This document shows, one piece after another, positions 18,260-40,451 of a DNA stretch of 64,000 nt. Where the stretch lies: NCBI GenBank assembly GCA_950295325.1, contig OX485806.1:4650001-4714000 (forward strand), given 5' to 3'. The notes below the pieces were generated by a model that worked only from the letters and a program-made list of their open reading frames with translations, was not told where the DNA came from and ran no database searches. Every line of letters begins with the position of its first letter. Position 1 is the first letter of the stretch. The DNA is from Polytrichum commune. Its lineage: Eukaryota > Streptophyta > Polytrichopsida > Polytrichales > Polytrichaceae. Both the position numbers and the translations under genes were made by a program.

Positions 18260-18781
18260 GGTATTTACGGCGGTATATGCGGTAGGTACAGCCTGTACTG
18301 TACCTGGGTGGTGTAGGGTTGGCGCACACGAAATGGCTTGAGCGCGTTCGGTGAGGTCTGTAGAGCGCACACTTGCATGTGCCGCTGAAAAGAGCTTTGT
18401 TGTGGGGGGAAGAGCTTTAAGTACTTCACCCCGCTGGTTCAAAATCCCTTGGATGCTCTTTAAAAAGCAGATTCCCGCCGCCTTCTTTGACCTAACAATC
18501 TCCCATTCCATCCATGCGGAATTATATAAATAGCATTGTCATGTATGGAACATGCCTTGCATGCACGCCAACATATTGAAAATATATAAATCGGTTGCAC
18601 ACCTTAGTTGTGACCAAGGTCTCATCGAAATATATGTATATACGTATATATATATATATACACATAATGTCTAAATATGGAGATGGTTAACATTGAATAT
18701 TTAATGATTTGCGACTAAGGTATGAAGTCCAAGTTAATTGACAATTGATGCCTAATAAAGTTATGAATGTCGAAGTCATAG

Positions 18782-18820
<39 letters not shown>

Positions 18821-20455: not shown

Positions 20456-20457
20456 TA

Positions 20458-20545
20458 CAACCATCTCCCATCTCCCATCGCATCCCATCCCATCCCATCC
20501 CTTCCCATCACCTCCCATACCATCCCATCCCATCTCTCTCCCAAC
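20458..20545. repeat. Simple repeat (CCCAT)n
   Basis: Imperfect CCCAT/CCCATCT units just upstream of the proposed locus A promoter. Confidence 0.8.
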
Positions 20546-20563
20546 CCTAGCCAGTGGAGTTGT

Positions 20564-20573
20564 GCCACGTGGC
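20564..20573. promoter_or_regulatory. G-box GCCACGTGGC upstream of locus A
   Basis: Perfect 10-bp palindromic G-box, the core bound by plant bZIP and bHLH factors. The identical decamer occurs upstream of locus B at 30026-30035, at a comparable position before the repetitive leader. It is followed by a pyrimidine-rich stretch (20598-20640) that suits a transcription start. Confidence 0.55.
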
Positions 20574-20715
20574 AGGTGCTGGGAAACCCTAGCGGCGCAC
20601 CTACCTCCCCGCGCCCCTTCCTCTTCTCCTCATTTGTCATTTCGAGGAGAGGAGGAGCGGAGCGTTTAGAGAGCGAAGCTCTTGCTTTTTTTAGTCTTGA
20701 AGTTTTAAATTAGTT

Positions 20716-21015
20716 TTGTTGCAAGTTTTGAGAGATTTCAGATTGAGAGCTTGTGTGAAAGCTTTTGAGTTTGTGAAAGCTTTCATTGTGAAAGCTTGTG
20801 AGTTTGTGAAAGCTTTCAGTGTGAGAGTTTGTGAGTTTCAAAAGCTTGAGAGCTTGAGTAGGAAAGCTTCAGAGTTTCGGATTGAGAGCTTGAGGGTGAT
20901 CTTTAGAAGCTTGAGAGTTTAAGGAAGCTTCAGAGTTGAAGCTTGAGAGTTTAAGGAAGCTTCAGAAGTGAAGCTTGAGAGTTTAGGGAAGCTTGAGAGT
21001 TTAGGGTTTGCTTAA
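20716..21015 (+). repeat. Locus A leader: repeats of GAAAGCTT/GAGAGCTTGAG
   Basis: Some twenty imperfect units of 12-20 bases (gagagcttgtgtgaaagctt..., gaagcttgagagttt...). The stretch encodes a 68-codon upstream ORF at 20716-20922, probably without function. The locus B leader is also repetitive but built of unrelated GCTTT units, so the repeats arose after duplication. Confidence 0.65.
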
Positions 21016-21519
21016 GAGTTCAGAAGCTTGAGAGCTACAAGGTTGTGAGTTTTGTGTACATAGGAGTATACTAGGGTTTGTATATAAGCTGTGAAGGCTT
21101 GAGGTCTGCATTAGAGAGTTATCTGAGTGTGCATTTGAAAGGCAATTGAGTGTGCAGTTGTGAGGATTTCTGGGATTTTCAGAAAGAGAAGAAGCAGGGA
21201 TTGCAGTGTGCAGCATTTCAATGTAATTTGTTATCCTTTCCAACTCCTCTCACATTCTGAAAATGTTGCTTCTTGAATTCAATTTCTTTTGTTACATGCA
21301 ATGTGAACTATCACTCTTTTCTTCATGTTTCATTCTGCATCTCATTCTGCATCTCAATTGCTTTATGATTGAAGAATTGCATCATTCTGACCAAAATTTT
21401 GCAGGCACGGCTGCAAGCAGAGTAGCTAATAAGTGAGTTATATACATATACATATATATATGTATTCGTATATACACGAATACATATATGTACGGACAGG
21501 GGATCCCAAAACCATCACA

Positions 21520-22151
21520 TATACGAACGCTCGTTCGTAAATGGACATACACTGCATACCCACCTCCATTTACGAACGCTCGTTCGTAAATGGACATACA
21601 CTGCATACCGAACCTCCATTTACGAACGTGCGTTCGTAAATACGCACTCCACGTTCTTTGAAATGATCTATATTTACGAACGCACGTTCGTAAATATACT
21701 CAAAATATCACTCAGAAGGAACCTTAACTTAAATATGAACCTCTATGAATATCTAAAGAACAAATACAATTTTGCGAACACCAATAAGACAAATCACATG
21801 TACTTACGAAAGATAAATCAACCAAATATCCGAAAAGATAGACCAAATGGACATACTTACGAACGCACGTTCGTAAATGAATCCAAACCTATAAAACCTA
21901 TATCTTTTACGAACGATCGTTCGTAAAAATAACCAAATATATTACAAACACATTCATGACGAGTAGTCTCTTTGATCTTCATATCTTTTACGAACGCTCG
22001 TTCGTAAACTCAATACTAAAAATTTATATGATCTTGCAACCCCTCATTTACGAGCGAACGTTCGTAAATATAATTACATCAATTGCAAAGACGCATTAAC
22101 ACTGCGTAGTCTGTGGGATATGCATGTCACTTACGAACGTTCGTTCGTAAA
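21520..22151. repeat. Locus A palindrome cluster in the leader intron (9 sites)
   Basis: Nine 22-bp palindromes with arm TTTACGAACG (minor changes) begin at about 21520, 21569, 21619, 21673, 21856, 21906, 21987, 22047 and 22130. The two-base centre varies (CT, TG, CA, AT, AA, TT), while the arms are nearly constant. Spacing is irregular (50-183), so this is not a simple tandem array. The last one ends 29 bases before the ATG, within the presumed leader intron whose acceptor ctgttgcag ends at 22179. Confidence 0.9.
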
Positions 22152-22179
22152 GTCACTAATTGTTTATATTCTGTTGCAG

Positions 22180-23475
22180 ATGGCAAGATCAAGCAGAAGC
22201 GCCATTGAGATGTTCGCGGTGAAGGTCGATGGCCTCCCAGAGTCGGTGTTAGACGATAACGGCAACGACAACTATGTCCCCAAGGAAGACTTCATGGGGG
22301 AGTGGACGGCACTGCCAGAGAAGATCGGGGACGGCCTCTTCTGCATGCGCTTCACCTACGAGCTGGAGACAAGACCGGACCAGCCCGAACAGTGGGTTCA
22401 AATGAAGACGTGGGAGATAGAGTCCATAGAGGCCCAGGGGGAGTATGTAATTCTGGACATGAAGAACAAGAAGGATCATATCAACCTCTTGTTGCATTTT
22501 CAGAAAAATACCTTCTCCTACCAATACGCCACCAATAACGTAGCGGAAGATGCCAAGCACTTCGACCTGGACGGCCTCTTCTCCAAATATGCGTTGAGCC
22601 CATACTGGACTGCAAGGAAATTGACCGCCCTTGCATTGAACATCTCCAAATACAACAGTGTGGTCACTGAGGCAAACAAGAAGAAGAAGAGCCCCAGGAA
22701 ACCATCCACATCAGGGGCAGGAGGATCTAGAAGTGCACCCAGGCCTGTGCCTTCCGCTAGCAGGGCGACGGAGGGCCCCAGTAGACACTCCACGCCATCG
22801 AAGAGGACAAGGGAGGAGATGGAGAAATCGGGAGTAACGGAGACCGCAGAGGTGACCTCGCCTGTCGTAATGCCCACCCCCTTGAAAAAGGGTGAGAACC
22901 CTGACGCTGTGAAGGCCACGAGGATCCTTCGAGACTTCAACAACTACTCGAAGGATTGCTGGCCCATGGGACGCCACTTCACATTCAACGTGGACTGCTT
23001 CAAGTGCGAGATGTCCCCCAACAAATGGGTGGTTCGCTCTCGCGAAAGCGGTGGTGTGAAGTGGCAGATAAATAATCTAATGAACAACGTCAAGTGGGAC
23101 AGGCAGACCGTCTGCGTCATGCCGAAGGGGCTGACATCCCGTCCGACGGAGAAGGACTGGCCACGGATCCAGAATGGAGAGTTCTGGATCATAGACGGCC
23201 AACACAGCTTGGAGGCGTCCCAAATAATTCTCAAGGACGACAACTTCCAGCATGAGCTGAAGGAGGACTTGCGCTACTGGAAGGCGTTCTTGGTGTGGTC
23301 GGACGATTGGGACAAGCTGCGGAAGATATCCACCTTCCTCAACTCCGGCAACAAAATCAAGGCCTTCGAGGCGTCGTGGGCAGCCAACATAGTGGCTGCA
23401 AGGGACGTCTGGGTCGCCCACGGGTGCCCCCCTAAAGAAAGGGAGAACGCGAAGACGCCGTCTCCACAATGGAAG
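22180..23475 (+). CDS. Locus A exon 1: N-terminal domain and ParB/DGQHR-like segment
   Basis: 432 codons. Residues ~20-165 form a folded domain shared with locus B (WTALPEKIGDGLFCMRF, QGEYVILDM). Residues ~168-235 are a low-complexity basic/serine linker. Residues ~250-430 hold WPMGRHFTF, NLMNNVKWDRQTVCV and GEFWIIDGQHSLEAS (around 333-346). The last resembles the ParB/DGQHR nuclease-fold signature (I-x-DGxHR-x-EA), though the usual Arg after His is Ser in both paralogues. The block KIKAFEASWAANIV is the most strongly conserved part. The donor AAG/GTGAGT lies five bases before a palindrome. Confidence 0.8.
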
Positions 23476-26400
23476 GTGAGTTTACGAACGAACGTTCGTA
23501 AATATCTTTGACATTCAAAATTTCAAGTTCTTTGACATTCAAACTTACGAACGTGCGTTCGTATTTTGTGCGTTACTGATGTTTTTCTTGCTGCAGGCAT
23601 TCTGCGACGCGATGGTGGACAAGTTCTCCTCCATCGACATGAAGTCTACAACAACCAAGTCTGTCCTGGAGCTCAAGGGTGAGCTCCGCCTCATCTGTTG
23701 CAACAGGGACACTTGGGAGTTGTGGACACAATTTTTTGATGCGCACAGCTCGGGCGATCTGGTCAACCCCGACACCGAGGAGAAGTACAACGCGGAGAAG
23801 ACCGGGGAGGCCCCTCCACTACTGAGGGAGTTCTTCAGGTCCCTTCAAGGGTTAACAGAGTCCGAGTTGCAGAGGTGCGCGGTGCATCTTCTTGGGAACA
23901 CTGTGGGAAGAACCATCCCATACCCGAAGATATTTTTGAAGAGGCCAAGACACAAGCCCGGCACGTATTCCATCAAGGAATGGTGCGAACACCGCAAGCT
24001 GAAGACTGCTGCAATGAGGGAGTTGAGCGCCCTAATACCAGAGTACGCACTCATCCTAGCCGACGGGGACATTAATTGGGCCAGCTGGAAGATGTTCAAG
24101 GTCGACTACAACATCTCCGGACCCTCAATGCGTTGTCTTGTCAAGGAGCACGCCTCCATTTTGAAGCAGAAGGGGAACAAGAGGACAAAGAAAACCGAGA
24201 CGGATCCCCAGGAGGTGGAGCAATACAGAAGCTTTTTGACGCGGAAGAGGTTGGCCACATTCGAAGGAGTGGCCAGATTTTATCTGTTGACAAAAGGAGT
24301 GGAGAGGGTGACATTTTCCAAGTGGGACCGGACCATGAGCAGGGCCGAGGTGAGGGAGGATCGACGGGGGTGCCCATTTGCCCTGATCGATTTCAGGGGG
24401 ATCCCCGGTGCGTCGAGGCAGGGGGGGAAGGACATACCTTTCTATGACCCCTTCATGGCCAAGTTCAAGGAGCACAAGTCTCCGGACATGACGGAGCCTC
24501 ACGTTTGGCTGTGGATAGTCGAGCAGGAGAAGCTCTCTGCTGTAGTCGACCTGTACGAGAAGTCGATCAAATTTGAGTACAGCATCTTCCACAGCACTTA
24601 CGTGCCCGCCAAGACGGAAGGGATCGTGGCCATCAACGAGGCCAGGGGGAACAAACAGGTGGGGGCGGTCAGCCTCGTCTTCTTGACGTACAACGCGCTG
24701 CGGAATGGGCGAGCCCCTGTCAAGGCGAACACTACGTTCAAGAAGATCTACAGCATCCCCCATCCCCCTCCCAAGGATCTGCTGCAGGAGACCTTGTACA
24801 CTGTCTTCCCGGCGATGGAACTCAGGTTGGAGTTCTACGTCTCCGTTTTGCAGAGCGTGGCAATAAGCGGAGAGACCGTGTACAACGTTTGTGGCGGCAG
24901 CAAGTTCATGTACGCTGCGATGGTAAGCTCTCCAACTAATATTTACGAACGCTCGTTCGTAAAGTTCACCTCAACTTGTCTTGGGTTTGATGACATTGTT
25001 TCTCGTCGTTGATGTTTACGAACGCACGTTCGTATTTTCTAACGTATTTGCTTGAATCTCAGATGCTGGGGCTGGTCGTCAACAGCTTCATTGAAGCCAT
25101 CGACGAGGAGGACTTCCACGTGCACAGGGCGAAGGCCTCCACGATGGACCTGGAGGACATGTCCCTCCCGAGGACGGACATCAACATGCCCGTCGACGAA
25201 GGCATGCCCGCCATGGAGACGGACGACGACGAGCCCGCGCCCTCCTACAACGTCGAGGCGATCCTCCGATCCTTGGACGTCACTCCTCTCCGCATTTTGG
25301 CGCCGTCGGGAAATCCATCCGACGTGCAAGGGACTCCGGGTGGATACACGGGGTCGTCGGCGGGGACAACCCAAGATGTCCTCCCCGCGAGAACGTCTGG
25401 AGCGGAGGCATTCGGCACTCCCGGGGGATGCTCGACATCCGTGTCGCCCAGGCCGATCGTGGTTCCCAAGATGGAGAACCTCGACCTTCTGGACCAACGG
25501 TCCCGACCGACGTTGGACCAGTACCGCAACACGAGGCGGAGGATGAAGAAGACCCCCTACGTGGAGCTGCCTCCGGGGGCAATCATCGAGGTCTCCGATG
25601 AGGACGAGGGCGACATGGAGATCATGGTCGAGCTGGGGGTAGACTTTGACAAAAACAAGAGGGTCAAAGAGGAGGCGTTGTCCGTCGCCGAGCTTAACGC
25701 CAAGCTCGAGCAAAAGATGAAGGAGGACATGGCGAAGGCGGCAGAGGAGAATGCCAAGAAAATGTTCGCAATTCAGGAGGAGCTGAGGCAGTCGAACGAG
25801 AAGACGGACGCCATCCTCGCCATGCTCCAGCGTATGCAGAGCTTCTCGGCGCCCCCCCAGCCGGCCTACCCCTTCACTGGAGGATACCCCTCCCAATCCC
25901 CTCCACCGGGCATGTTCACCGGAGGGCCTTCCCGCCAGCAGGCGCCCCACCCCACGCCTGTTGGCACTCCTCCGCCACCAGAGGTTCCCTCGACCACCTC
26001 CCACGATGCTGTGGCGGCGGCCATCCAGGAGGACGAGGATTTACGAACGCGCGTTCGTGAATCTTCAGGTCCTCCAGTCCTCACCCCTCCCCCTTCAAGG
26101 GTAGGACTGCCCTCATACACCGATGCATCGTCTTTCACCGTCGTCCCCAGGGTAGTAGACAGACATGGCGATGACTCTGCGCGACACACTGACATGGTCA
26201 TTGTGGAGGACACGCAGGGGAGCCCCAATGACGCACCAGGGGTGCATGGGATGGACGTGGAAGAAACCCATGCGGCGTGGATGGAGGATGTCAGGATGGA
26301 CGCGCTCGACCTGGGCGCCGAGGAAGAAGACGCGCTGCGCATCCAGGCGACACATGCCTCTCAACCGGAGCGTGAGGCAGAGGCCATGGAGACAGAGGCG

Positions 26401-28994
26401 GCTGCAGCTGTGGAGGTTACGAACGCGCGTTCGTTAATCGTTGAGGAGGGACCTGCTGCTCGGTCCAGCGCCGCTACCCCTCCCCCCGATGACGAGGTAA
26501 CTCTCCTCTGAGAATACCATTTTTTAACGAACGCGCGTTCGTAACCTCTCTAACATCGCGATGTTTTTCTCTTCATCGACATCCAGTGGCCTTGCGAGAG
26601 CCCTCTTCAGCGGTCCCCCTTAGGGCCGAACAGTTTTGTAGGACACGGCATCATTTTGCCTTAGGAAAATGTGATAGACTATCACGTGAGAAATGTAAAT
26701 ATTCAACGGATTAATATATGAGCCTATGTTATCTGCATCGCGTTGCTTCAAATTCTCTGCCCTCGACCCCTTCTCGTATGTTGTATATGTTGATGAGATT
26801 ATGTTCATTCTTGCATACCCACCTCATTCGCGAACGCTCGTTCGTGAAAGGCTGCGACCCACTGTCCACCTCATTCGCGAACGACCGCTCGTAAATGTAC
26901 GTGTAGCCGCGCTCACGAACGAGCACTCGTAAATGATGCGCACCGCCCCCGCAGCCTTCATTCACGAACGCTCGTTCGCAAGTGTGCCCTTGAGCACATT
27001 TTCCTTGCACTCTCCTCACTTCCTCGTCTTTCCCCATAATGCACCGTCTTCATTTTCTACGCAAAATTTCATTATTGGATCATAGAATTAAACTAGTCGA
27101 GTTGTTCATCACAGGACCCCCCGGAGATTGGTCGCAACCCCTCTACCAGTGGACCTCCCACCCGGAACAAACCTTTCATCGTTTTTGACCTCAACGGGGT
27201 GTTGTGTCACACCCAACACATCCCAAGGGTCCCCACGCGTCCCTTCCGTCACCCCGACGAAAGGGACTACGACGGCGAGCTCGACACCCTCATTAACCGC
27301 AAGGCTGTCCGCGCCCGTCCCGGCTTGCGTGACTTCCTTCGCGAGGTGGTCGAGTTCGCTCACGTCATTGTGTGGAGCTCCATGGTCATGGAGAACACCG
27401 AGCCCATCGTGCACTTCTTGTTCCGCGATCTCCCGAGCCCTTGCCTCGTCCTCGGCCAAGAGGACTGCGACGAGCTGCTCGACGAGAAAGGTCAACCGGT
27501 GCCCAAGTTTGGCGGTCGGGGCGGAGGACAACAGTTCCTCAAGGTCCTCCGCTCGAGACTCTGGCGAGGCGTCCCCCGTCTGCAAGGGACGCCGCACGGG
27601 TGGTGGCCGACTCCAGAGAACACCGTCCTCATCGACGACAGCCCCACCAAGAGTGTCTTGAACCCCCCGGGCAACGTCATCTTCCCGGACACTTGGACCG
27701 GCGATAGGCAAGACACATTTTTGGTCGATAGGCTAGCCCCCTACCTTAGAAGGCTCGTGCTCCACGCCGGTAGCATCCCATTTTTTGTTAGGTCCAACCC
27801 CTTCGGCAATGCGGCGCTAAGCCCCCGCGATAATGTATTCAAGAGCATCATGAGGCTCGCCAAACTCAATAAATTGATTTGAAATGCCTCCATGTCTTTG
27901 CTTGTATCATGTGGTTCACATTTACTAATGCTTGCTTCGTTTTTGGATGTCTTTTGTTGTTGTGATTGTTGTTGTTGTTGTTCTTGCCCATAGTCTGCCC
28001 CCATATGCGACGCCCCTGTGGTCGACGGCCCTTCCCGTCCCCTCTCGCCCCCTGCCTCCCCTTCCCGCGACGTCACGGGCTTCCAAATGCCATCCCTCTA
28101 CCAGTTCTCGGCGGTCGACGCGGCCTCGGCCGTGGATTACTCCCGCGACGTCGGCATCGACGACGGCGTCGTCAACAGCCCGCCCCCACCACTTGTCGCC
28201 CGCGCCTACGCCCCATCGCCCTCCCCCCTCTCCAAGGAGAAACGGACGCTCGTTCGTTTGGGACACCTCTCGCCCTCGAGGGACGACGCCGTCGCTCGTC
28301 GCGGGCCGAGCCGGCGTCTCCGCATGGAAGGCCCCCGTTGCCACACCTCCCCCGCCGACTCCGTTCCTCCCCCCGCAACGTCCTCCGCGATCGTGGGCCC
28401 TCCACGCCTCGACTCCCCCCCGCCATCCAACATAATTGCAATAGTTCCATCGGCTCCGGATGCTCCCGTCGACGCCCCCCTCGTTCCCACCGTTCCCCGC
28501 ATGGACGTCCCCAAAGCCAAGGTGCCCTCCTCAACCCTGAACCCCTTTCTCGCTTTTGCTTTCCTTGTCTTCCGTTTGCGTGCCGTTCTCTTTACGAGCG
28601 CCCATCCCAAACCGCCCTCATTATTTTCCCCACTCCATTCCTATTCTTATCTTCCTATGACGTTGTTTCGCAGGTGGTTACCCGCTCGCTTGGTGCCCGG
28701 CCCTCCTCCACGTCCTCCTTGGATAGGCACGCCCTCAAGGCCGCATCTTCCGAGTCCGATCGTTGTCTGGCCCTCCGGAGAAGCGCAAGACGTTCCCTTT
28801 CGCAAACACCCTCGCATTCTACTTATAATACCACCTCTTACAATTCGGGAGCGCGTCCTGAAACATGCAAGAACGACACATATTCCTGTCCAGGCAACAC
28901 ACAAGGATACAGTCGTGGGCCTGAGATTTTTAGAGCCATGGAGGCCGCCAAAAAAAAGGGCTTAGCCGCAAAAAAAAATAATGGGTCGGACTAG
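22180..28994 (+). CDS. Locus A gene: ParB-like / methyltransferase-like / FCP1-type phosphatase protein
   Basis: Six coding blocks inferred from splice signals and from matching locus B: 22180-23475, 23597-24922, 25063-26496, 27115-27882, 27994-28521, 28674-28994. All joins are phase 0. The ATG sits exactly at an acceptor (GCAG/ATG), so translation starts at the first base of exon 2 of the transcript. Exons 1-4 alone give ~1607 residues. Intron 4 has lost its donor: locus B has TTG/GTATGA where A has TTG-ATTTGA, so without another splice A ends at the TGA at 27880 and exons 5-6 are left untranslated or separate. Codons are GC-rich, unlike the surrounding AT-rich DNA. I know of no named family with this domain order; the role is unknown. 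Acidic, coiled-coil and phosphatase parts suggest a nuclear regulatory protein (inference). Confidence 0.75.
23481..23565. repeat. Locus A intron 1 palindromes (2)
   Basis: Two 22-bp sites at 23481-23502 and 23544-23565. The first begins only five bases after the exon (in GTGAG/TTTACGAACG), so a hairpin there would sit on the 5' splice site. Confidence 0.9.
23597..24922 (+). CDS. Locus A exon 2: degenerate amino-methyltransferase-like domain
   Basis: 442 codons, acceptor TTGCTGCAG. The order of motifs reads like a beta-class N6-adenine/N4-cytosine methyltransferase. A hydrophobic strand ends at ALIDFRGIPG, where a DPPW/DPPY motif IV would be; then HVWLWIVEQEKLSAVVDLY, IKFEYSIFHSTYVPAK (equivalent to the strand with 'WvK'), then the LRLEFYVSVLQSV helix and GETVYNVCGGSKFMYAAM, equivalent to the SAM-binding GD-VLDPFGGSGTT motif I. 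DPPW is absent and the motif I glycine loop is changed, so catalysis is doubtful. Locus B shares every feature (FDFRAFPN; ETVYNVFGGTKFVYAAL). This is an inference from motif order, not a database match. Confidence 0.7.
24942..25036. repeat. Locus A intron 2 palindromes (2)
   Basis: Sites at 24942-24963 and 25015-25036. The first starts 19 bases after the donor GTAAGC; the second ends 26 bases before the exon 3 acceptor. Confidence 0.9.
25063..26496 (+). CDS. Locus A exon 3: acidic, coiled-coil and proline-rich linker
   Basis: 478 codons. It starts LGLVVNSFIEA, which completes the motif I helix of the methyltransferase-like domain. Then come an acidic region, a VELPPGAIIEVSDEDEGD stretch (a SUMO-interaction-like hydrophobic core followed by acids and a serine), a coiled coil (ELNAKLEQKMKEDMAKAAEE..., about exon residues 207-265) and a Pro-rich tract. 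Two locus-type palindromes lie in frame in the coding sequence: 26040-26061, read LRTRVRE, and 26416-26437, read VTNARSL. Donor GAG/GTAACT. Confidence 0.75.
26040..26061. repeat. Palindrome inside coding exon 3 (locus A, first)
   Basis: TTTACGAACG, CG, CGTTCGTGAA. The arm loses its TAA (reads TGA out of frame) but stays open in the used frame. No counterpart at this position in locus B. Confidence 0.85.
26416..26437. repeat. Palindrome inside coding exon 3 (locus A, second)
   Basis: GTTACGAACG, CG, CGTTCGTTAA near the end of exon 3, read as V-T-N-A-R-S-L. Locus B has its own palindrome type near its exon 3 end, read F-T-D-A-R-P-E in the same frame. Confidence 0.85.
26524..26982. repeat. Locus A intron 3 palindromes (1 good, 4 decaying)
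   Basis: A good site at 26524-26545, 27 bases after the donor. Then four decayed ones at about 26827, 26874, 26912 and 26961 (TTCGCGAACG, CTCACGAACG arms), spaced 38-49 bases. The decayed group matches the 17.4-kb end of the locus C array. Confidence 0.8.
27115..27882 (+). CDS. Locus A exon 4: FCP1/SCP-like HAD phosphatase domain
   Basis: 255 codons plus a TGA, acceptor CATCACAG. Motifs of the HAD superfamily in FCP1/NLI-interacting-factor form: FIVFDLNGVLC (motif I, nucleophile Asp present, the second Asp replaced by Asn), ARPGLRDFLREV, HVIVWSSM (motif II) and TVLIDDSPTKS (motif IV, DD), ending PYLRRL. FCP1-like enzymes remove phosphate from serine/threonine, classically the RNA polymerase II tail. 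Loss of the acid/base Asp in both paralogues raises doubt about activity. Ends KLNKLI-TGA, since the donor present in B is missing. Confidence 0.85.
   Translation, partial: DPPEIGRNPSTSGPPTRNKPFIVFDLNGVLCHTQHIPRVPTRPFRHPDERDYDGELDTLINRKAVRARPGLRDFLREVVEFAHVIVWSSMVMENTEPIVHFLFRDLPSPCLVLGQEDCDELLDEKGQPVPKFGGRGGGQQFLKVLRSRLWRGVPRLQGTPHGWWPTPENTVLIDDSPTKSVLNPPGNVIFPDTWTGDRQDTFLVDRLAPYLRRLVLHAGSIPFFVRSNPFGNAALSPRDNVFKSIMRLAKLNKLI
27994..28521 (+). CDS. Locus A exon 5: C-terminal region, Ser/Pro-rich
   Basis: Acceptor CCCATAG; 176 codons in phase 0. The core MPSLYQFSAVDAASAVDYS...DDGVV matches locus B nearly residue for residue, so this is a real exon and not a chance frame. The rest is Ser/Pro-rich with RRLRMEGP matching RRLCMDEP in B. 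It can join exon 4 only if an unrecognised donor is used. The donor is AAG/GTGCCC. Confidence 0.65.
28674..28994 (+). CDS. Locus A exon 6: C-terminus
   Basis: Acceptor TTTCGCAG; 106 codons and TAG. Conserved with B in SLDRHALK, ESDRCLALRRSARRS, GNTQGYSRGPEIFRAM and a Lys-rich end (possible nuclear localisation signal, inferred). Confidence 0.65.
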   Translation: MVTRSLGARPSSTSSLDRHALKAASSESDRCLALRRSARRSLSQTPSHSTYNTTSYNSGARPETCKNDTYSCPGNTQGYSRGPEIFRAMEAAKKKGLAAKKNNGSD

Positions 28995-30020
28995 TGTGAC
29001 GTCTAGAAGCGTACTAGTGGGACGGACTCCCTAAATGGGCTTAGGTGTAGAACATATTTAAGTGCTTACTTTCTATGCTATTCCAAGTTACTCAAGACAT
29101 TGATGGTATTTCCATTATAATTGTATTTCAATCCCAATTAATTCATTCAACTTCCATTCATTCTTCGCACCTTCCCTTCCATTCATAACGAGTTGTGATT
29201 TCATACGCAACTATTTTCATGTATGCCTCACATTTTTGTTCACTTCCATGCCTTTATGTATAATAATAGTAGCATACCATTATACATATGGAATTTTTAG
29301 TCGTCATTACTGGTCCAATTTTGAAAGGTGCATCCTTATATAGTCTCATAATCAACAAAAAGTCTCCAAATACCGAATATAGTGTTAGTTGAAATTTAGT
29401 GTTTGAGTTCACAGTTAAAAGTACCTTACTTTCATAGGGTTAGTGATATTTAGTGTAATTGGATGTTGCGACTGGATGATGGTGACATGTCAACTAATAC
29501 TTATATGCATATGATATTGAGCAAGAAGTGTGTATAATGGTTGTTGAGTTGGTGGATGCCGTTTTGGGAATCAATAATGCAGAAGGCTTTGATTTTAATG
29601 TTAATTTGCATTTGGTTCATTTGGATGATGTTTTTTCATGTACAATATTAAAGCGTCAACGTTATGCATCATTGTTGTCTAATTTTTTATTAGACAACTT
29701 GTTTCACTTAGGTAGGCAACACTAGACTCAGATCACTGAACTCTTATTTCAATAATTATTGAGAACGCTTGTATTTGTTTGAAGTTATACGTTATTATTT
29801 CATACAATATATATAATAATTACTTACATCCGTTGTGTGTGTTTTGAAGCTCATATTTCTTTTGTTTTTTTATTCGCTCAATAGTACGACAATTTTACAG
29901 CGTTTGTCATATTAACGAGAAGACAACATGTCGATAATACGACATTTTTTGTGATTTCCAAACGTGTCTTACTAAAGAGGGAGAGGTGTGCCACATACCT
30001 CTCCAATATGAACCTATAGG
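28995..30020. other. Spacer between loci A and B
   Basis: AT-rich, no gene supported. The tract 29335-29395 (tagtctcataatcaacaaaaagtctccaaataccgaatatagtg, in pieces) recurs at 38588-38635 downstream of locus B. So the duplicated segment extends ~350 bases past each stop codon. Confidence 0.6.
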
Positions 30021-30025
30021 GTTCA

Positions 30026-30035
30026 GCCACGTGGC
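30026..30035. promoter_or_regulatory. G-box GCCACGTGGC upstream of locus B
   Basis: Same perfect decamer as upstream of locus A. It is followed ~75 bases on by ttaagggttttagggttt (a telo-box-like AAACCCTA element on the other strand), common in plant 5' regions. Confidence 0.55.
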
Positions 30036-30239
30036 GATGGGGTGCGGGGTGGATGGGACGTTGGGAGTCGGGGCGTTTGGGGGGCTCCTCTTGAGTACTT
30101 AAGGGTTTTAGGGTTTCATTCGCCCATTTTCACCCTCTCATTTCTCCGCCTCCCCTCTCTCGCTCTCCTTCCTCACATTCTTCTCACGCTCCTCTCTTGC
30201 TTCTCTAGGGTTTGTTGTTGTCACCCTAAACCCTCTCCT

Positions 30240-31080
30240 CCCCGCGTTCCTCTTGTTGTTGGCGATTCTCTCCGCGCTCCTCTCTTCTTGCTGTTGGCGT
30301 TCCTCTTGCTCTCCTCTTGCTCTCCTCTTGCTGTTGGCGCTCCTCTTGCTGTTGGCGCTCCTCTCCTCTCCGCGCTCCTCTTGCTGGTGGCGTTGCTCCT
30401 CTTGCTGTTGGCGCTCCTGGTCACCTCACAAGGTTGTTTGTTGTTTGTGTTTGTGTTTGTTCTTGTGCTTGCTGGTTTGCTTTGCTTTGCTTTGCTTTTG
30501 CTTTGCTTTGCTTTGCTTGTGCTTTACTTTGCTTTGCTTTGCTTTGCTGATTTGCTTTGCTTTGCTTTGTTTTTCTTTGCTTTGCATTGCTTGTGCTTGC
30601 TGGTTGTGCTTGGTTGTGCTTTGTTGTGCTGGCTTGGTTGCTTGTTTGATTGCTTGCCTCTTGCATAATGACATAGGTTGCTTGTTTGATTGTGTTTTAG
30701 TTAATTTCTTGCTTTTACTTGCTTGTTTAATTGTTTGATTGCCTGCTGCTTGTGTCATTGTTTGTGCTTGCTAGCTGGTTGTGCTTGCTTGTGCTTACTT
30801 GTGATTGTTTTTTAATCTTTTGTTTATGTGCTTGCTTGTGATTGCTTTTTCTCTCTTTTGCTTGTGTGCTTGCTTGCTTACAGTTGTTTGATTTGCTTGT
30901 GCTTGCTGCTTTGCTTTGCTTTGCTTGCTGGCGTGGTTGCTTGTTTACTTGCTGGCCTCTTGCATAAGTACATAGATTGCTTGTTTGATTGTGTTTTAGT
31001 TTATTTCTTGCTTTTTTACTTGCTGGTTTGATTGTTTGATTGCTGGATTGTTTGATTGCTTCGTTTTTTTTGTTCTTTGC
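30240..31080 (+). repeat. Locus B leader: CTCCTCTTGCTGTTGGCG and GCTTT repeats
   Basis: A block of ~18-base units (ctcctcttgctgttggcg) at 30245-30420, then long runs of TTTGC/GCTTT (30475-30640) and two diverged copies of a ~300-base segment (tgcttgtttgattgtgttttagttaatttcttgc at ~30680 and again at ~30975). The long hydrophobic frames here are low-complexity artefacts of this DNA. Confidence 0.65.
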
Positions 31081-31255
31081 TGGTTTGCTTGTATTTTGCA
31101 TCATATGCATCATGAAAGATTTCTAGAACACTGCAATTGCATTATGTAGATCAATGCAATTGCATTCTGCAGATCCTTGGGAAATACAAAACCACCCTCC
31201 TGAAATTCCGGAACCCTCTCAACAAGGACCAGATTAACCAATGTAGGGCTTGAAG

Positions 31256-31779
31256 TTTACGGACGCACGTCCGTAAACTTTGACGCACCAGGTGGGTGAA
31301 GCATGCAACATATATCCAGAATTTACGGACGCGCGTCCGTAAGTTTTGGATATATTTAAAAAACAATATTATTACTAATGGACAGTATATTTTCCTAGTT
31401 TACGGACGCGCGTCCGTAAACTAGTGACATCCGAGTAAACCCCATTCCTAGTTTACGGACGCGCGTCCGTAAACTAGTGACATCCAAGTAAACACCATTC
31501 CTAGTTTCCGGACGCACGTCCGTAAATTAGTGCTAACCCCGTAAACCCAACTACTAGTTTACGGACGTGCGTTCGTAAACTAGAACTTTCTTATTAAATC
31601 TTATCTTTGTTCATAGTTGAGATTCTCATCCCCAACTACCCGTTGATAGTTTACGGACGCGCGTCCGTAAACTACATGTGAAATTTCGTATTGACATATG
31701 CAAAATCATTTCGGATAGTTCATTCTGACACTATAATTCAAAACAACCTGTGGAAAGTTTACGGACGTGCGTCCGTAAA
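31256..31779. repeat. Locus B palindrome cluster in the leader intron (8 sites)
   Basis: Eight 22-bp sites with arm TTTACGGACG and complement CGTCCGTAAA: starts at about 31256, 31322, 31399, 31452, 31505, 31558, 31650 and 31758. Four are in a ~53-base register with the shared flank ctag...ctagtgacatcc. One site (31558) has an A-type right arm (CGTTCG). The last ends 45 bases before the ATG. Confidence 0.9.
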
Positions 31780-31824
31780 CTTGACATTGATCATGATGCT
31801 AAGCATTGTTTTTTGCATTTGCAG

Positions 31825-33114
31825 ATGGCATCTACAAAAAGACCTGCAATTGACCAGGCATTTGAGTTTCTTCCGCCTCCACTTCCACCCGCCATCAAAG
31901 ATATAAGCCACAACGATCACTACAAGCCAGTCGAAGACACAGTAGACAACTGGACAGTTTACGTAGAGAAACTTGAGAATGACACATTCGTACTTAGATT
32001 TGGGTATCAAATGAATACCAAAGATATAGACGTAGATAAATGGGTTAGAGTTAAAAATTGGTCAGTAAAGTGTGCAGTGGCCCAAGGTGACTATGTCGTC
32101 ATAGATCTTGAAAAACAAGATGACAGAGTCACAATTCTTCTTCATGAGCACAGACATCCATTCCACAAGGCTGAATGCGAAAATGGCAGCCCGGATGCGG
32201 GTTGCTTCAATCTGGCAACTGAATTCCAAGACTATGCATGCAATGCACCTTGGATGGGTAAGCGGCTTGGAAGACTCCTCAACAATGTCACGAGAGTGAA
32301 TGGGGCAGTCCTGGAGTCCAGAAAGGGGAAAGGGAAGAAGAAAGTCGTTTTTGAACGACAACCGCGTGTTCCACAGACAGTCCCGGAAGGATCAAGACCG
32401 TCTCAAAGTGGAGCATCGAGAGAGAGCAGACCATCCAGTAAACGCTCCCATTCACAGATGGAGTCATCTGGACTTACCGAAGGTCCAGATGTCAGCTCCA
32501 CCCTTACTGTCGCACCACTTCTGAAGAAAGGAGAACGCCCGAACTCTGATCTATCAACAAAAATTCAACAAGAGTTCGACGAAAAAACGAAAGCCTGCTG
32601 GCCAATGGGCAGGTATTTCACATTTGACGTGGATGTTTATAAATGCCACCAGGGCACCGAGAGTATGAATACTCGGGTGCAAGAAGAGAGCGGGGTCTGG
32701 TGGCAGATGAACAACATCATGAACAACCCGAAAGCTGACCGGCAGACCATATGTGTGACCCCAAAGGATCCAATCGTGGAGGTCACAGCAGAACATTGGC
32801 CAATTATTAAGCAAGGGGAATTCTACATCGTGGACGGCCAGCATAGCGTGGAAGCGGCAAAAGCTCTCCTCGCAGACGATAATTGGAAGAGCCCTCTGAA
32901 ACCCACAATCCGATATTGGAAGGCACTTCTCGTGCATTCAGAGGACTCCAATCAGCTAATCGCCATATCAGCCTTCCTCAACCAGACAAACAAAATCAAA
33001 GCGTTTGAGGCGTCATGGGCAGCCAACATCGTGGCTGGTAGGACCTTGTGGGAGGAGCACGGCTGTCCACCAAAAGAGAGGGACAACGCAGTCGTCAAGA
33101 ATCCCAAATGGCAG
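31825..33114 (+). CDS. Locus B exon 1: N-terminal domain and ParB/DGQHR-like segment
   Basis: 430 codons. N-terminal domain: WTVYVEKLENDTFVLRF, QGDYVVIDL. Then a basic/serine linker, WPMGRYFTFDVD, NNIMNNPKADRQTICV and GEFYIVDGQHSVEAA (around residues 331-345), then KIKAFEASWAANIV and HGCPPKER as in A. The invariance of DGQHS between two otherwise diverged paralogues suggests that the motif is functional. Donor CAG/GTAATA. Confidence 0.85.
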
Positions 33115-36100
33115 GTAATATTCCCAAATGAATTTACGGACGCGCGTCCGTAAATTCTCCGTCACTCTTTCTGTGCTCTAAGTTTACGGACGCGCGTCCG
33201 TAAACTAGACTGTTCTCATTCCATTTGTTGATCTCATTTCAACAACTTATTTGTTTCTCTACTTGCAGGCATTCAGCAGTGCGATTGTGACGAAGTTCTC
33301 AAGTATTGACATGAAGCAAAGCGGCATGAAGACAGTGCACGATCTGAAGGGCGAACTGAAGCTCATCACTTCGTCGGGTAGGACCTGGGCTATCTGGATG
33401 CGCGTCTTCCATGCACACAGCAACGGAGAACTCATCAACCTTGAGACGGAGAAGAAGTACAAAGAGGACTTGAAGATTAAGGTGCCTCCAATCCTCAGAG
33501 AGTTCTTCCGTCCCCTCCAAGGGTTGCTCGATGCCGAGCTTTACAAGGCGGCAAAACACCTTCTTAAGGAGACTCCGAGAAGGACAGTGCCGTATCCAAA
33601 AATTTTCCTCAAACGACCAAGGTTTATGAAGCCTTCAACGTACCATATTAAGGAATGGTGCGAATACAGGAAGAAGAAGACGTTGGCTATGAGGGAGATA
33701 GGCAAATTGGTACCCGCCTACAACCTTACAGATGCAGATGGTGACATTGTGTGGGACAACTGGAGGGGATTGAAAATAGCATACCACATCAATGGCGTCT
33801 CAATGAAGGCATTGATGAGAGCAGCATCTCCGTTCTTGGCCCAGCGCTCAAGGAAGAACGAGAAGAAAGGTTCTATCGACGAAAGGGAGACAACTTTGTA
33901 TAAACACTTCCTCGATAGAAAGAAGAATGCCAAATTCGAGGGTGTCGCGAGGTTTTGCGCCGTGACATCACAATTGAAGTTCGGCAAGTGGGACACCCAT
34001 GCTTCGCGGGCCACTGTGAGAGATGACCCCCGGGGTTGTCTTTTTGCTATCTTTGATTTCCGTGCATTTCCAAATTCTTGGAAACAACCTCCTCCGGGGA
34101 CCCCTTTCTACGACAGCTTCCTGAAAGCTTTCAAGAGCTTTCGGTCCCCTGCACTTCTGGAGCCAAACGTGTGGCTGTGGATTGTGGACCAAGAGAGATC
34201 CGCAGCGGTCGTCGACCTATACAACTCGACGATGGATCTCGAATACAATATCTTCCACAGCACATACGTCCCCGCGAAGACGGAAGGCATCGCCGTCATC
34301 GAAGAAGCAAGGGGGGTAAAGCAGGTCGGCGCTATATGTCTCTATTTCTTGACACGGAAGTCTTCGCCAAGTGGGCGTTTGCCTATAAAGGCGAAGAGCG
34401 TGTTCAAGAAAATTTACCAGTTGCCGCCTCCACACCCCAAGGAGCTAATGGACGAGGCGATGTTCGCAATCTGCCCGGGAACCGAGCTCCGAATGGACTT
34501 TTACATAGGGGTATTGAAGGCTGTGACTGTGATGAGTGAGACAGTGTACAACGTCTTCGGGGGGACCAAATTTGTTTATGCGGCATTGGTAAGTACTTAA
34601 AAAAACTTTCATGCCTCCACCTGATGCAACTTTACGGCCGCGCGACCGTAAAATGTAACCACCTAGTTCATTTCAACTTTATGGCCGCGCGGCCGTAAAG
34701 TTATCAAACCTAACCCAGTGTGCATTTTACGGACGCACGTCCGTAAAATGCACACTGCATCATGTTTGTATGTCCATCTTCCCCGTCAATTCAATCTTGA
34801 TACCAACAATCCACTAACTTTTTTTATTTGGTGCAGATGCTTGGGTTGCAGGTTAACTCGTTTGTGGGGGCTGGCGACATGGATGAGTGCAAAGATCACA
34901 GGAAGCTTGCAGAGAAAATGGATCTCAATGACTTCTTGGATATCATTACCCCACATCCTGTTGTTCCTCTTGCCTCTAGAGAGGAGCCTTCTCATGCAGG
35001 CGGGTGGGGCAGCGATGGAGACGATGATCCAATGTCTCCAAGGGGACAGCCCTCCAGGCAGGAAGACTTGCCCGGTCTTGCTCGTCATCCAGTGGATCGC
35101 GTGGCGTATCTCCTGGGTGAAGACGACATGGATGCAGAGGAGGCGCAACCCTACGTCACTATAATTCGGGTGCCTCATAATACGCCTAGTCTATCACCCT
35201 TTGGGACTCCCACTTCTCGAGTTGGGCTTCCTTCCACTGCGGGCCCATCTCGTGCTGCAAGGCTTATGGCGGAGAGGGATGCGGACCTTGCTGCAGAAAC
35301 CGGATGCACGGCGTCCTCTGGTGGGGGAGAGCCCAGTGAGCAGGCGGCGCTCCCGCCCATGGAAGGTAGAGATATGCTAGAGTTGATATCGAGGCCCGAT
35401 ATCGACTCCTACCGTGCAAGCCGGCGGCAGAGAAACAAGACGCCTTACAACGAATACCCCGAAGGCGCCGTCTTGGAACTCTCAGATGAAGACGAGGATG
35501 AGGTGAGGCTGTACGCTTCCATCTCCGCCTTGCCTTCTGAGCCAGGCAAGGTGAAGAGAGAGCCCATGTCCGTCTCCGAGCTGGACGAGAAGATGGAGAA
35601 AAGGATGAAGGAAGAGCTTGACATGCGGCTCCGGGAGGCCAACGAAGAGCACGCCAGGAAGATGGCCGCCATCCAAGCTGAGATGGAGCAAGCTAGGTTG
35701 GAGTCTGCTCGGAGGCATGCCGACCTCATGGCTCAAAATCAACAATTCTTGGCTCAAAGCCAACAATTCATGAGCATGATGGCAAGCTTGCAGGCAAGAC
35801 CCCAGGTGGTGTATGCAGCTCCCGAGCCCACCATGTCCGTGCCCCCCGTTCTGGTGCGCCCTCCTTCTAGCAGCCACACGGTGTACATACCGGAGCACAC
35901 CTATACGGCCCCTGCGTTGGTTGTCCCGCCCCCTCCCCAGGTTGCTGCCGCTCCAGAGCCCTCCCCTCCCGCCATAGGAGACGATGAATATGTCAACATC
36001 GGCGACGCCCCCCTCGCCGATGAAGATGTACATATGCGGGGGGGCCAAGACTCCTCGCATGAGGATCAACCTTTCGTCGGCACGCAAGCGTCGCAAGCAG

Positions 36101-38303
36101 GTGGAGCCGATTTGTTGGTGGTGGAAGACACGCAGGGCGAATTTACGGACGCGCGTCCGGAACCTGGCCCCGCAACTGGGCCTGGTGAGGGAGGCACTGC
36201 CGGCGAGGAACTCACCGCTGAAGAGGTAATCAACCTTTGAGCATGCCTCCCTCTTTACGGACGCGCGTCCGTAAGTTCCCAGTCAGCCAACTTTCGTGGC
36301 GTGTGCATATTTTCGAGTTCGAATCTCGACTTCGCCCGCGGCGGCGGATCCAATTTTGCTAGTGTAGACTCAATTAATCTTAGGAGAGACCTTTAGTGAC
36401 AATGTAAATTATTCGCGAAATGTATATCACCAAACACATTAATACAATTTTTTGAACTGGATAGTTCTTCGGATACTTGTTGCCTCGCATTTCTTTGTTG
36501 CGTTTTTGCTTGCTTGTCATTTGGTTTTCCTGGGTAGTGCCATTCACCTAGGTAGTGTGTGCCATCACAGGGTCCGTCGGAGATATGTCGCAACCCCGCC
36601 GAAAGACCAAGCCAGCCCATGAGGAAAAACTTCATAATATTTGACCTCAATGGCGTGCTTTGTCAATCCACACATATCTCCAATAGTGCGTCCAAGGGTC
36701 CCTACCGTACTCCACAAGACATGGATTACGGCGGGCGCTTCGATACACTAATTAACAAGAAGGTTGTGCGCGTCCGGCCCGGCTTGAGGTGCTTCCTTCG
36801 TGAGGTCCTCGGCTTGGCCCATGTCATCATCTGGAGCTCCATGCTGATGGACAACACGAAGGCCGTCGTCAGTTTCCTTTTCCGAGAACTCGCAATGCCG
36901 TGCTTGCTTCTCGGTCAAGAACACTGCGATGACCTTTATGACCGTAGCGGCAAGATTGTACCCAAGGTCGGAGGAGGCCCCGGACCTCAATTCCTTAAGG
37001 TGCTGAGGAAGAACCTCTGGGTGGGCGTCCCGATGTTGGAGGGGGTCCCCCAAGGTTATTGGCCCACTCCGGAGAACACGCTCCTCATTGACGACAGCCC
37101 GGCGAAGAGCGTTCTCAACCCCCCGGGCAACTGCATTTTCCCGAACCCTTGGGAGGGCGATAGAAACGACAACTTCCTAGAGTTAGAATTAGGACCCTAC
37201 ATTAGAAGGCTTGCCCATCACTCCGGAAGTGTCCCGGATTTTGTCCTCTCAAATCGTATTGGCAATAGACCTCTAGGCCCAAGAGATACAGAATTTAGGA
37301 GGTTGTACGGCTTTGCTGAACTCAATAAATTGGTATGAGAACTTTGATATTTTTTGGCTCCGTACTTGGACTCTCCATGTTTATATCTAACATTTCTCTC
37401 CTTATTTTGTAAATGTATTTTTGTGCCTTAGTTGCCTCACCAAGCATCCCAAAGTCTCAGACATGGCATGTCTACATCTCAGCCGGGCCCCAGCTCCCCT
37501 TCCATTGGTGTGACCGACGTTTCAATGCCTTCACTATTTCAATTTTCGGCCGTCGATGCCGCCTCTGCCGTGGATTACTCCAAAGACTCGGGGTTCGAAG
37601 ACGGAGTTGTCGATAGCCCTCCTCCAAAGGTTGCAAAGCTCAATTACGCTCTACCCCCATCCCCATCACCCCTCCGCAATGAGAAGCACGTTCGAAACCC
37701 GCGGTCGACCAGGCGTCTTTGCATGGATGAACCCCACATTGATGTCCCGGCCTTTACGAACGTCCCGGTTGTGCTTGTGTCTACTCCCCTCGATGTCCCT
37801 GAAGATCAAACCGCCGCCCCGAAGGCCAAGGTGCCCCACTATTGGCATTCTCAAATTTTTCGTTCATGATGTCCGCGTATTAATTTAGTGCATTTCAAAT
37901 TCTTGGGTTTTTCGGACTTACATCCGTAACTTATACTAACCCACGTCGTTATATATATTTTTGGTCATTGTTTCAGACCCCAATATACATGGATGTGGGA
38001 CGTGCATCCTCCACTCCGTCATTGGATAGGCGAACACTGAAGACTGCGACTTGCGAGTCTGATCGTTGTTTGGCCCTACGAAAGAGTGCAAGACATTCGG
38101 TTTCCCAAATGCGTTCGTATTCCACTTATTCGGTAGGGGGTCGGCCAATATGGGAAAATGGCATATATTCGAGGGCTGGGAATGGGAATACACAAGGTTA
38201 CAGTCGCGGAGCCGAGATATTTAGAGCCATGGACGCCATGAAAGCAAAAGAAAAAGAAACGGCCGCAAAGGCTAATAATAGTATTTCAAAAACAAAAGAG
38301 TGA
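31825..38303 (+). CDS. Locus B gene: ParB-like / methyltransferase-like / FCP1-type phosphatase protein
   Basis: Six coding exons with canonical GT-AG borders, all phase 0: 31825-33114, 33269-34588, 34837-36225, 36571-37332, 37432-37830 and 37977-38303. They give 430+440+463+254+133+108 = 1828 residues. ATG again directly follows the acceptor (TTTGCAG/ATG), so a non-coding leader exon must exist upstream; its donor is not certain. It is the tandem paralogue of locus A (same exon borders and domain order) but less GC-rich and with no lost splice site, so B looks like the intact gene. Palindromes of the B type flank and enter it. Confidence 0.85.
33133..33204. repeat. Locus B intron 1 palindromes (2)
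   Basis: Sites at 33133-33154 and 33183-33204, both arm TTTACGGACG. The first starts 18 bases after the donor. They occupy the same place as the A-type pair in intron 1 of locus A. Confidence 0.9.
33269..34588 (+). CDS. Locus B exon 2: degenerate amino-methyltransferase-like domain
   Basis: 440 codons, acceptor CTTGCAG. Conserved with A: AKTEGIAVIEEARG, NVWLWIVDQERSAAVVDLY, LEYNIFHSTYVPAK and ETVYNVFGGTKFVYAAL. The DPPW position reads FDFRAFPN. Keeping the scaffold while both copies lack the catalytic tetrad points to a non-catalytic, perhaps nucleic-acid or SAM-binding, role (inference). Confidence 0.75.
34631..34747. repeat. Locus B intron 2 palindromes (3, two of a GGCC variant)
   Basis: 34631-34652 (TTTACGGCCG/CGACCGTAAA), 34678-34699 (TTTATGGCCG/CGGCCGTAAA) and 34726-34747 (standard TTTACGGACG type). 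The first two form a third arm type, TTTACGGCCG, each with one mismatch. Confidence 0.85.
34837..36225 (+). CDS. Locus B exon 3: acidic, coiled-coil and proline-rich linker
   Basis: 463 codons, acceptor GGTGCAG. Begins LGLQVNSFVGA, then an acidic region, YPEGAVLELSDEDEDE (SUMO-interaction-like motif at the same place as in A), a coiled coil (ELDEKMEKRMKEELDMRLREANEE...), a Pro-rich part and VVEDTQG. The in-frame B-type palindrome (36142-36163) is read F-T-D-A-R-P. Donor GAG/GTAATC. Confidence 0.8.
36142..36163. repeat. Palindrome inside coding exon 3 (locus B)
   Basis: TTTACGGACG, CG, CGTCCGGAAC: full left arm, right arm with two changes that remove the TAA. It directly follows the VEDTQG codons, where locus A has no palindrome; the A counterpart lies further downstream. 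Confidence 0.85.
36254..36275. repeat. Locus B intron 3 palindrome (1)
   Basis: Arm TTTACGGACG, starts 29 bases after the donor, matching the position of the first intron 3 palindrome in locus A (28 bases). Confidence 0.9.
36571..37332 (+). CDS. Locus B exon 4: FCP1/SCP-like HAD phosphatase domain
   Basis: 254 codons, acceptor CCATCACAG. Motifs: FIIFDLNGVLC (Asn in place of the second Asp, as in A), VRPGLRCFLREV, HVIIWSSM, TLLIDDSPAKSVLNPPGN and PYIRRL. Donor TTG/GTATGA; unspliced reading would stop two codons later, so splicing here adds 241 residues. Confidence 0.85.
37432..37830 (+). CDS. Locus B exon 5: Ser/Pro-rich region
   Basis: 133 codons, acceptor GTGCCTTAG. Conserved core MPSLFQFSAVDAASAVDYSKD...GVVDSPPP; ends APKAK before donor AAG/GTGCCC. 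No palindrome in the introns before or after, only half-site-like ttacgaacg at ~37754. Confidence 0.75.
37977..38303 (+). CDS. Locus B exon 6: C-terminus
   Basis: 108 codons and TGA, acceptor TTGTTTCAG. Conserved ESDRCLALRKSARHS and GNTQGYSRGAEIFRAM, Lys-rich end. Confidence 0.75.
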   Translation, partial: TPIYMDVGRASSTPSLDRRTLKTATCESDRCLALRKSARHSVSQMRSYSTYSVGGRPIWENGIYSRAGNGNTQGYSRGAEIFRAMDAMKAKEKETAAKANNSISKTKE

Positions 38304-39548
38304 CGCCTATTCATGGTCCAAATGTATAGGCTATATTAAAATACATATAGATGTGGATTTGTGTTTCTAGGGCTTTGGCCTAATAGTGGATATTCCACTT
38401 GCATTTTGTATTTTGACCCTCTTCAATGAATATGATATCGATTTCCTATATGCAAATGTTGTAATTGTCCCATTTCCCTATTTTTATATGTGTAATTACA
38501 TGCATTTGAGTTTCATATTTGTTTCCATATTGGGAACATAGCATATTTGTAGTGTTTTCATTCCTATAAATGTGAAAGCCACGTCCTTAAATAGTCTCAA
38601 AATTAACAAAAAGTCTCCAAATAACGAATATAGTGTTATATCTCGCACTTGCATCTAAAATTGGTTTTTCAGCCGTCTTTCATCTTCCTATGCATGACTC
38701 TCTATTAACATCTGTAATTCCGCTTGCTGGTACATAAGTTGCCAGTTGGCTCTGTAATTCCTTTCCTGTTATATATTATTGCCATTTCAATGTTCAGAGG
38801 ACTTGTTTTGATCAGAGTTTTGTCCTACACTATGGCCCTGCTTCGTGCTGAATCTCATTCTGTTCCGGTCCTCTTTCCATTAGGTGAAGACGGTCATGCT
38901 ATAGTCACTTGTGCAACTTTGAGTTTGAGGTTTCAGTATCGTGAGGTCACTATCTTTGTCGAAGAAGAAGTTTTTGACGATCATACCGGTCTAGTTTCAC
39001 ATGCAGTTCGTCAGACTAACACTATATTTGTTAAATTGAGACTTTCTCTAGTCTCAAATTAATATATGGATCAAACAACATTCCGTGTTCCGAAACTATA
39101 TTGCGAACAATCTCAAATATATTATATGTTATAATATCCCAAATCTATTATGTGTGGACATAAGCACATATGGTAGAGCACTCAACACCAACTTCATCAA
39201 CAAAAACACTTTGGGTAGAGCACTCCAAACTAGTTTCACCCAAGAAACATATAAAATGATTTCTATTATTAGCATGGTCAATAAAATATAGACATTGCAA
39301 CATACAAAGTGCATGCAATAAATGCATTTTTCTTCAATGGAAAATTTAGTCCCAAACTTAATAAAAAAATGAACTTCACAATTGTATTGAAATATAGTAA
39401 ATGGATATTCATCCAACCCCAAACAATATAGCATTCGCAAGTTCTACCCAAACTTTGCCCCAAGTTTGAGGAGCACACATATGAGTAATATATATTCGTC
39501 GAATTACTGTTTACACTATAATCATGCTAACACAATCCTACCAACTTC
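38304..39548. other. Spacer downstream of locus B
   Basis: AT-rich. It contains the shared downstream tract at 38588-38635 and a plus-strand frame at 38724-39062 (112 codons; GEDGHAIVTCATLSLRF...) that I do not recognise and cannot support. Nothing else is seen. Confidence 0.45.
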
Positions 39549-40395: not shown

Positions 40396-40439
40396 TGTGA
40401 GGCCAAATCCACCATCCTTAAGCGTCCTAGTCCGGGTGA

Positions 40440-40451
40440 CACTATAAGAAA
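40440..40451 (+). repeat. CACTA left terminal inverted repeat
   Basis: CACTATAAGAAA, the conserved CACTA-superfamily end, following TSD TGA. Confidence 0.9.

Follow-up and report, generated by a model that had tools for sequence, protein, structure and literature searches.

Large DNA transposon families in Polytrichum commune carry lineage-private 22-bp palindromes and a candidate ParB-like recogniser

Elements A, B and C and their genes

The 64,000-nt stretch of the Polytrichum commune genome analyzed here (assembly GCA_950295325.1, contig OX485806.1, positions 4,650,001 to 4,714,000; hereafter, the window) holds three related elements, which we call A, B and C (Table 1), each with its own set of 22-bp palindromes, whose arms are private to the lineage, change jointly, keep a fixed spacing and are conserved. 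Element A is a multicopy DNA transposon, based on its recurrence on contig C1, the many copies of its first exon, its paired ends and the 4-bp duplications that flank most copies with both ends read. The stretch between 13.3 and 29.4 kb, in fact, is found again on C1, with 97–98% across 12 kb both at 2.46 and at 2.54 Mb, with mostly 91–96% and insertions at 2.27 Mb, and with 76–90% at 2.23 Mb, and 97 scored copies of A exon 1 with at least 87% identity were obtained from 1089 first-look candidates. The ends of the element carry CACTATATTCG preceded by AA, and thus show a CACTA start. Twelve copies (ten, plus window A and the one at C1:0.64 Mb) were inspected for terminal duplications; among the eight with both ends read, six had identical 4-bp duplications, and the two unmatched copies were window A (ATGA/AGTT) and one other. 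In one copy failing this test, the right flank is common to another copy. The element at C1:640864-646099 (L012, L013) has both ends but no long-gene match, and bears a dense A-type array with a mostly GG/CC centre; a NIF piece and a DUF7869 piece are present in it.

In element A, the DUF7869 gene lies on the minus strand, to the left of and divergent from the plus-strand gene for a long protein. A public relative of this protein, P0001, crosses the exon 1-2 junction without an intron, which suggests splicing at this position, although P0001 may be an intronless copy.

The initial annotation saw in A and B two tandem paralogues born of a duplication. Our analysis does not bear this out: element A abuts a truncated B, because positions 29386-29811 match the interior of a fuller B copy at 99.8%, and the window showed no B-type left half. 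In the fuller copy, B arms are also present upstream of its own DUF7869 gene. The A and B proteins share 48% identity over exons 1-2, with nonsynonymous divergence (dN) of 0.49 and synonymous divergence (dS) of about 4.4, a saturated value, and on these sequence distances we therefore regard them as old relatives and not as products of tandem gene duplication. Scored copies of B exon 1 number 98, from 1041 first-look candidates, and range between 71% and 100% identity. A and B are alike in that a NIF-type phosphatase exon is found downstream of the ParB-like coding exons.

Element C continues beyond the window. Its long gene, located to the right of the window (L010, 4611-5936), has 35% identity to A exon 1, with C sites in its leader and intron 1, and its DUF7869 gene shows 54–78% identity to that of A, in three pieces. 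A second C copy is found near C1:2.473-2.480 Mb. The insert that splits the DUF7869 gene of C (approximately 40440-49980) has ends CACTATAAGAAA and TTTCTTATAGTG, with TGA on both sides as judged by eye. A, B and C would then belong, as families, to a single type of large DNA transposon, as part of the overall explanation discussed below.

Table 1. Coordinates of the features of elements A, B and C in the window
Feature	Position	Strand	Basis
Element A, DNA transposon, inverted ends AACACTATATTCG...CGAATATAGTGTT	13324..29386		recurrence and termini
DUF7869 gene of A, candidate transposase, at least 2 exons	13732..16854	-	Pfam PF25273, E 3.8e-40 in 13732-15318; open reading frames
Diverged copy of A gene exon 3 end and intron 3, upstream of DUF7869 gene	17087..17521	+	65% identity to 26431-26887
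10 A-type palindromes, array upstream of DUF7869 gene	17180..18254		scan
9 A-type palindromes, leader intron of A gene	21520..22151		scan
A gene, DGQHS/ParB-like protein, exons 22180-23475, 23597-24922, 25063-26496	22180..26496	+	1352 amino acids open
2 A-type palindromes, intron 1	23481..23565		scan
2 A-type palindromes, intron 2	24942..25036		scan
2 A-type palindromes within coding exon 3 (26040, 26416), two different frames	26040..26437		scan and gene model
5 A-type palindromes, intron 3, 4 of 5 degenerate	26524..26982		scan
NIF-phosphatase exon of A gene	27113..27882	+	PF03031, E 2e-13
Element B, left side truncated, right terminal repeat ends near 38637	29387..38637		termini; match to fuller B copy
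8 B-type palindromes, leader intron (31558 is an A/B hybrid)	31256..31779		scan
B gene, DGQHS/ParB-like protein, exons 31825-33114, 33269-34588, 34837-36225	31825..36225	+	1333 amino acids open
2 B-type palindromes, intron 1	33133..33204		scan
3 palindromes, intron 2: two GGCCG-like, one B-type	34631..34747		scan
B-type palindromes, exon 3 (36142) and intron 3 (36254)	36142..36275		scan
NIF-phosphatase exon of B gene	36570..37338	+	PF03031, E 1.8e-13
Element C, left end 39018, continues beyond window, other transposons inserted	39018..64000		left terminus
DUF7869 gene of C, split by CACTA-like insert, cut near 53740 by LTR (long terminal repeat)-like sequence	39549..53740	-	PF25273, E 2.4e-38 in 51669-52313
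10 C-type palindromes GTTTGGGTCG-NN-CGACCCAAAC, upstream of C DUF7869 gene, LTR-flanked insert between	55313..63198		sequence of the window

Palindrome sets and their arms by lineage

Each site consists of a 10-bp arm, two free bases and a second 10-bp arm. Counts of exact arms in the window are 41 for TTTACGAACG, versus 0.07 expected from 100 shuffles, and 21 for TTTACGGACG, versus 0.05. A scan tolerating up to 5 mismatches returned 48 rows within the window, of which three (16998, 28591, 37909), with 4-5 mismatches and no clear palindrome, were dropped; it gave 20 sites between 21520 and 26961 (locus A) and 15 between 31256 and 36254 (locus B), in agreement with the initial estimate of about 20 and 15, as well as the 10 A sites upstream of the DUF7869 gene. 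These 10 A sites had escaped the initial annotation, as had the third palindrome family, the 10 C-type sites at 55313 and 62521-63198. Also upheld were the claims that the sites occupy corresponding places, as both gene models hold them in the leader intron, introns 1, 2 and 3, and exon 3, and that the arm differs by locus. Among sites that conform to the 22-bp frame with no more than 2 mismatches, the variable bases of element A (upstream array counted) are AA/AA in 24/26 sites and AA/AG in the other two, while 12 of the 15 B sites are GA/GA, one is the hybrid at 31558, and the remaining two are GC/GC (34678) and GC/GT (34631).

At several B sites (34726, 31399, 31322 and others) palindromy exceeds the constant 22 bp, with letters specific to the site: outer pairs 11, 12 and 13 are complementary in 73, 93 and 67% of the 15 B sites, respectively, and site 34726 is a 38-bp palindrome. 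Such extended palindromy, together with the location of some sites within short-range tandem repeats (of 53 bp in B, of 79 bp in C, and of about 177-179 bp at 17.6-18.2 kb, where each repeat has two sites), would be compatible with the palindromes being very small mobile or self-copying sequences that spread into the element and were homogenised through gene conversion. We find this improbable, however, as the flanks beyond the 22 bp are unlike one another at many sites, gene conversion limited to the 22 bp, and repeated at dozens of places, is difficult to envisage, and the sites listed all fall within element stretches. The pattern TTTACGRACGNNCGTYCGTAAA, which pools A, B and hybrid arms, gave in fact 4099 exact matches in the 408 Mb of the assembly (64 contigs, of which C1-C7 each exceed 40 Mb), where equal-base arithmetic would predict approximately 0.002, and its reversed version gave none. 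Among the matches listed, a sample of the 4099 made up of the first ones on contig C1, all are located in five stretches with DUF7869, long-gene or NIF homology, the element at C1:0.64 Mb being one of these, and no palindrome apart from family members was seen; within this sample, the result goes against a MITE or satellite. The dispersal away from the family that would have spoken against the initial proposal is therefore absent among these matches, even though the family itself, as a transposon, is widely dispersed.

To read arms across lineages, 12 exon-1 copies spread over the ranking were taken from the 195 scored A and B copies. All four A-clade copies had A arms, and seven of the eight B-clade copies had a GAC arm in intron 1, one of them with symmetric C-to-T and G-to-A changes. 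The exceptions are L046 (71% identity to B), without a clear site, and the ATG-proximal leader site of the B clade, where L040 and L043 have an A-type site and L041, L042, L044 and L045 a mixed AC/AA one. Arm types in DNA are AAC, GAC and GTC, while GCC and others are found in the public relatives. These comprise 37 proteins for A/B and, for the C query, 55 hits, nine of which are already among the 37 and 46 further. Reading frames of the relatives often extend into introns, spelling the palindrome as a peptide tail, and arms deduced in this way fit the DNA letters rather than prove them. Based on their tails, the 37 A/B relatives divide into 11 A, 8 B, 2 GGCCG and 16 with the tail absent or ambiguous; C relatives show the arm GTTTGGGTCG or one close to it, among them GTTTGGGCCG (P0055) and GTTTSGGGCG (P0060, P0063, P0064).

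Among intron-1 tails of at least 8 amino acids, 31 of 52 were palindrome-compatible (at least 5 fixed arm bases), versus a mean of 10.6 and a maximum of 19 in 300 shuffles, although the 31 include some chance windows, and tails stopping inside a site are missed. On a tree of the 54 proteins with read arms, the 7 arm states need 7 changes versus a shuffled mean of 30, a value as low being reached in 0 of 200 shuffles; this clustering is aided by near-copies, and a long-branch warning applies between the A/B and C halves. The tree left out tail-less and ambiguous rows, P0075, P0046 and P0072, whose arms are wholly or partly readable, and L038, for which two stops are listed, as only open stretches of more than 300 amino acids were kept. 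Arms are thus private to the lineage and follow the family member, as the initial annotation anticipated, with the B-clade leader exceptions above.

Near-identical LTR-like repeats of about 980 bp (43418-44403, 53736-54721, 55396-56370, 61546-62520) bear other palindromes, GGACTTCCATCCATGGAAGTCC and GGCGCTGTCCCGGGACAGCGCC; these LTR-like repeats are also present many times in the fetched stretches.

Conservation of the sites and their possible recogniser

In a sample of 254.5 kb (the window plus fetched copies, many of them near-copies), the two arms agree at both variable bases in 222 of the 237 sites in the A/B frame; of the others, 2 are A/B hybrids and 13 are discordant in other ways. The gap between exact arms is 2 nt in 142/142 cases (gaps of 0-12 scanned), and the middle bases vary. 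Most sites lie in predicted introns, leaders or exons, and arms of 9-10 bp would fold, helped at times by pairing flanks as in the 38-bp palindrome, so that a role as RNA hairpins in transcripts, in splicing, small RNA production or stability, could be proposed. An invariant 2-nt spacing, however, would be odd for a loop, and within a lineage the arm sequence is held beyond what pairing alone would ask for; we hence consider such a role quite unlikely.

Conservation of the sites stands out against that of their surroundings. In A-clade copies, intron 1 sites are 93–98% identical to those of the window, with exon 1 at 78–95%, while intron 1 outside the sites is at 45–52% in L035-L037 and at 92% in the close copy L038. 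In the C1:2.23 Mb copy, sites versus spacers are 93% versus 53% in intron 1 and 91% versus 55% in intron 2. The contrast is weaker in the leader (0.64-0.78 versus 0.43-0.57), and in the leader or intron 1 of B-clade copies L040-L045 sites are at 0.57-0.88 and spacers at 0.33-0.47; no such contrast was seen in L039, a close B-clade copy. CpG dinucleotides number 126 in the 30 A sites and 69 in the 15 B sites, with a noncoding-flank observed/expected ratio of 0.76 for A, equal to that of the whole window, and 0.35 for B. Because the sites in coding exon 3 (26040 and 26416 in A, 36142 in B) fall in two different reading frames, the entity that is kept there seems to be the DNA rather than a peptide.

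The initial annotation left two possibilities for the change of a whole set of sites: that each set was re-seeded and homogenised, or that each is held to a locus-specific recogniser. As arms change jointly at a fixed spacing, and sites are preserved amid intron spacers that for the most part have diverged, the latter fits best. We propose, with more confidence than doubt, that these transposon families each encode their own ParB-like recogniser of private palindromes. Each family pairs a DUF7869 gene, for a candidate transposase, with a divergent gene for the long protein, whose exon-1 part would hold a ParB/sulfiredoxin-like domain, followed in A and B by the NIF-phosphatase exon, and scatters its palindromes over its own genes, in leader introns, in the other introns and even within exons. 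A dimer of the ParB-like protein might then bind the palindrome of its own family, and loading at many places might mark the element as self. By analogy with the systems discussed below, binding could keep the element unsilenced, tune its promoters, or join its ends for transposition. The private tag probably exists so that the element's own protein finds only its own kind.

More tentatively, the protein could work as a eukaryotic ParB-type clamp, with a dimer that would load on parS-like palindromes, slide, coat the element and protect it from silencing, and new families arising through a joint switch of protein and palindrome specificity, as in ParB and Noc. This is a possibility to which we would give less than even weight. 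An unlikely alternative would assign recognition to the DUF7869 transposase or to some other DNA-binding part, with the palindromes acting as transposition sites like the subterminal repeats of CACTA elements and the ParB-like protein serving otherwise. DUF7869 genes do have private arrays of the same kind upstream, and in CACTA elements transposition requires an element-encoded protein that binds private repeats (PMC2613891). Here, however, sites also occur well away from the ends, across introns and exons of the ParB-like gene, whereas the repeats of the CACTA elements described in that source are subterminal (PMC2613891).

A recogniser of private palindromes would address how a transposon tells self from relatives, and how a DNA-binding protein changes together with dozens of targets, for which few natural systems are available. 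This one genome offers families at graded distances, readable arm types, recent open-frame copies and public relatives, and protein-site co-evolution is therefore directly testable through swaps of protein and 22-bp site. If the ParB-like reading is true, a bacterial chromosome-marking device would enter plant transposon biology.

Comparison with known systems

Three known systems come closest to the one described here. CACTA elements (En/Spm, Tgmt*) share the terminal CACTA, a transposase accompanied by a second element-encoded DNA-binding function with TnpA-like proteins, and repeat motifs that vary among subfamilies (PMC2613891). They differ in their subterminal repeats and in a three-base target duplication (PMC2613891), in place of which we found 4 bp, next to AA-CACTA ends; furthermore, no tnp2 match was obtained in the five DUF7869-gene pieces scanned, which matched DUF7869 instead.

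Exon 1 is suggested to belong to the ParB/sulfiredoxin fold class, although no sequence homology to the long protein was detected for ParB or Noc, which are bacterial chromosome systems with 16-bp sites. ParB and Noc bind CTP and close into a clamp; the ParB motif is GERR, and the long protein here has DGQHS. Both bacterial sites, parS (TGTTTCAC-GTGAAACA) and the Noc NBS (TATTTCCC-GGGAAATA), are palindromic, as are the sites described here, where the pairing of protein and site is a candidate one drawn by analogy; specificity in ParB/Noc diverges via symmetric base changes, and scattered loading sites serve a spreading clamp (PMC7383237, PMC8429893).

The initial annotation knew of no plant element with such a layout, yet a similar one exists in VANDAL/VANC. 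VANC is the anti-silencing protein of Arabidopsis VANDAL transposons, and causes sequence-specific loss of DNA methylation. Neither A exons 1-3 and the NIF exon, scanned to an E value of 1, nor 31 exon-1 products gave a Pfam match to DUF1985 or DUF287, the domains of VANC proteins (PMC5735166), and VANC motifs, of 8-9 bp (YAGTATTAY; AGTTGTCC or AGTTGTAC), form single-orientation arrays (PMC5735166), whereas here we see 22-bp palindromes, some of them in exons, alongside a ParB-like protein and DUF7869. Noncoding-dense, family-private motifs are nonetheless found here as well, the B-clade leader sites excepted, and the two systems are also alike in having an element-encoded protein, short motifs dense in introns and upstream of the transposase gene, sets that change together, and tandem repeats (PMC5735166).
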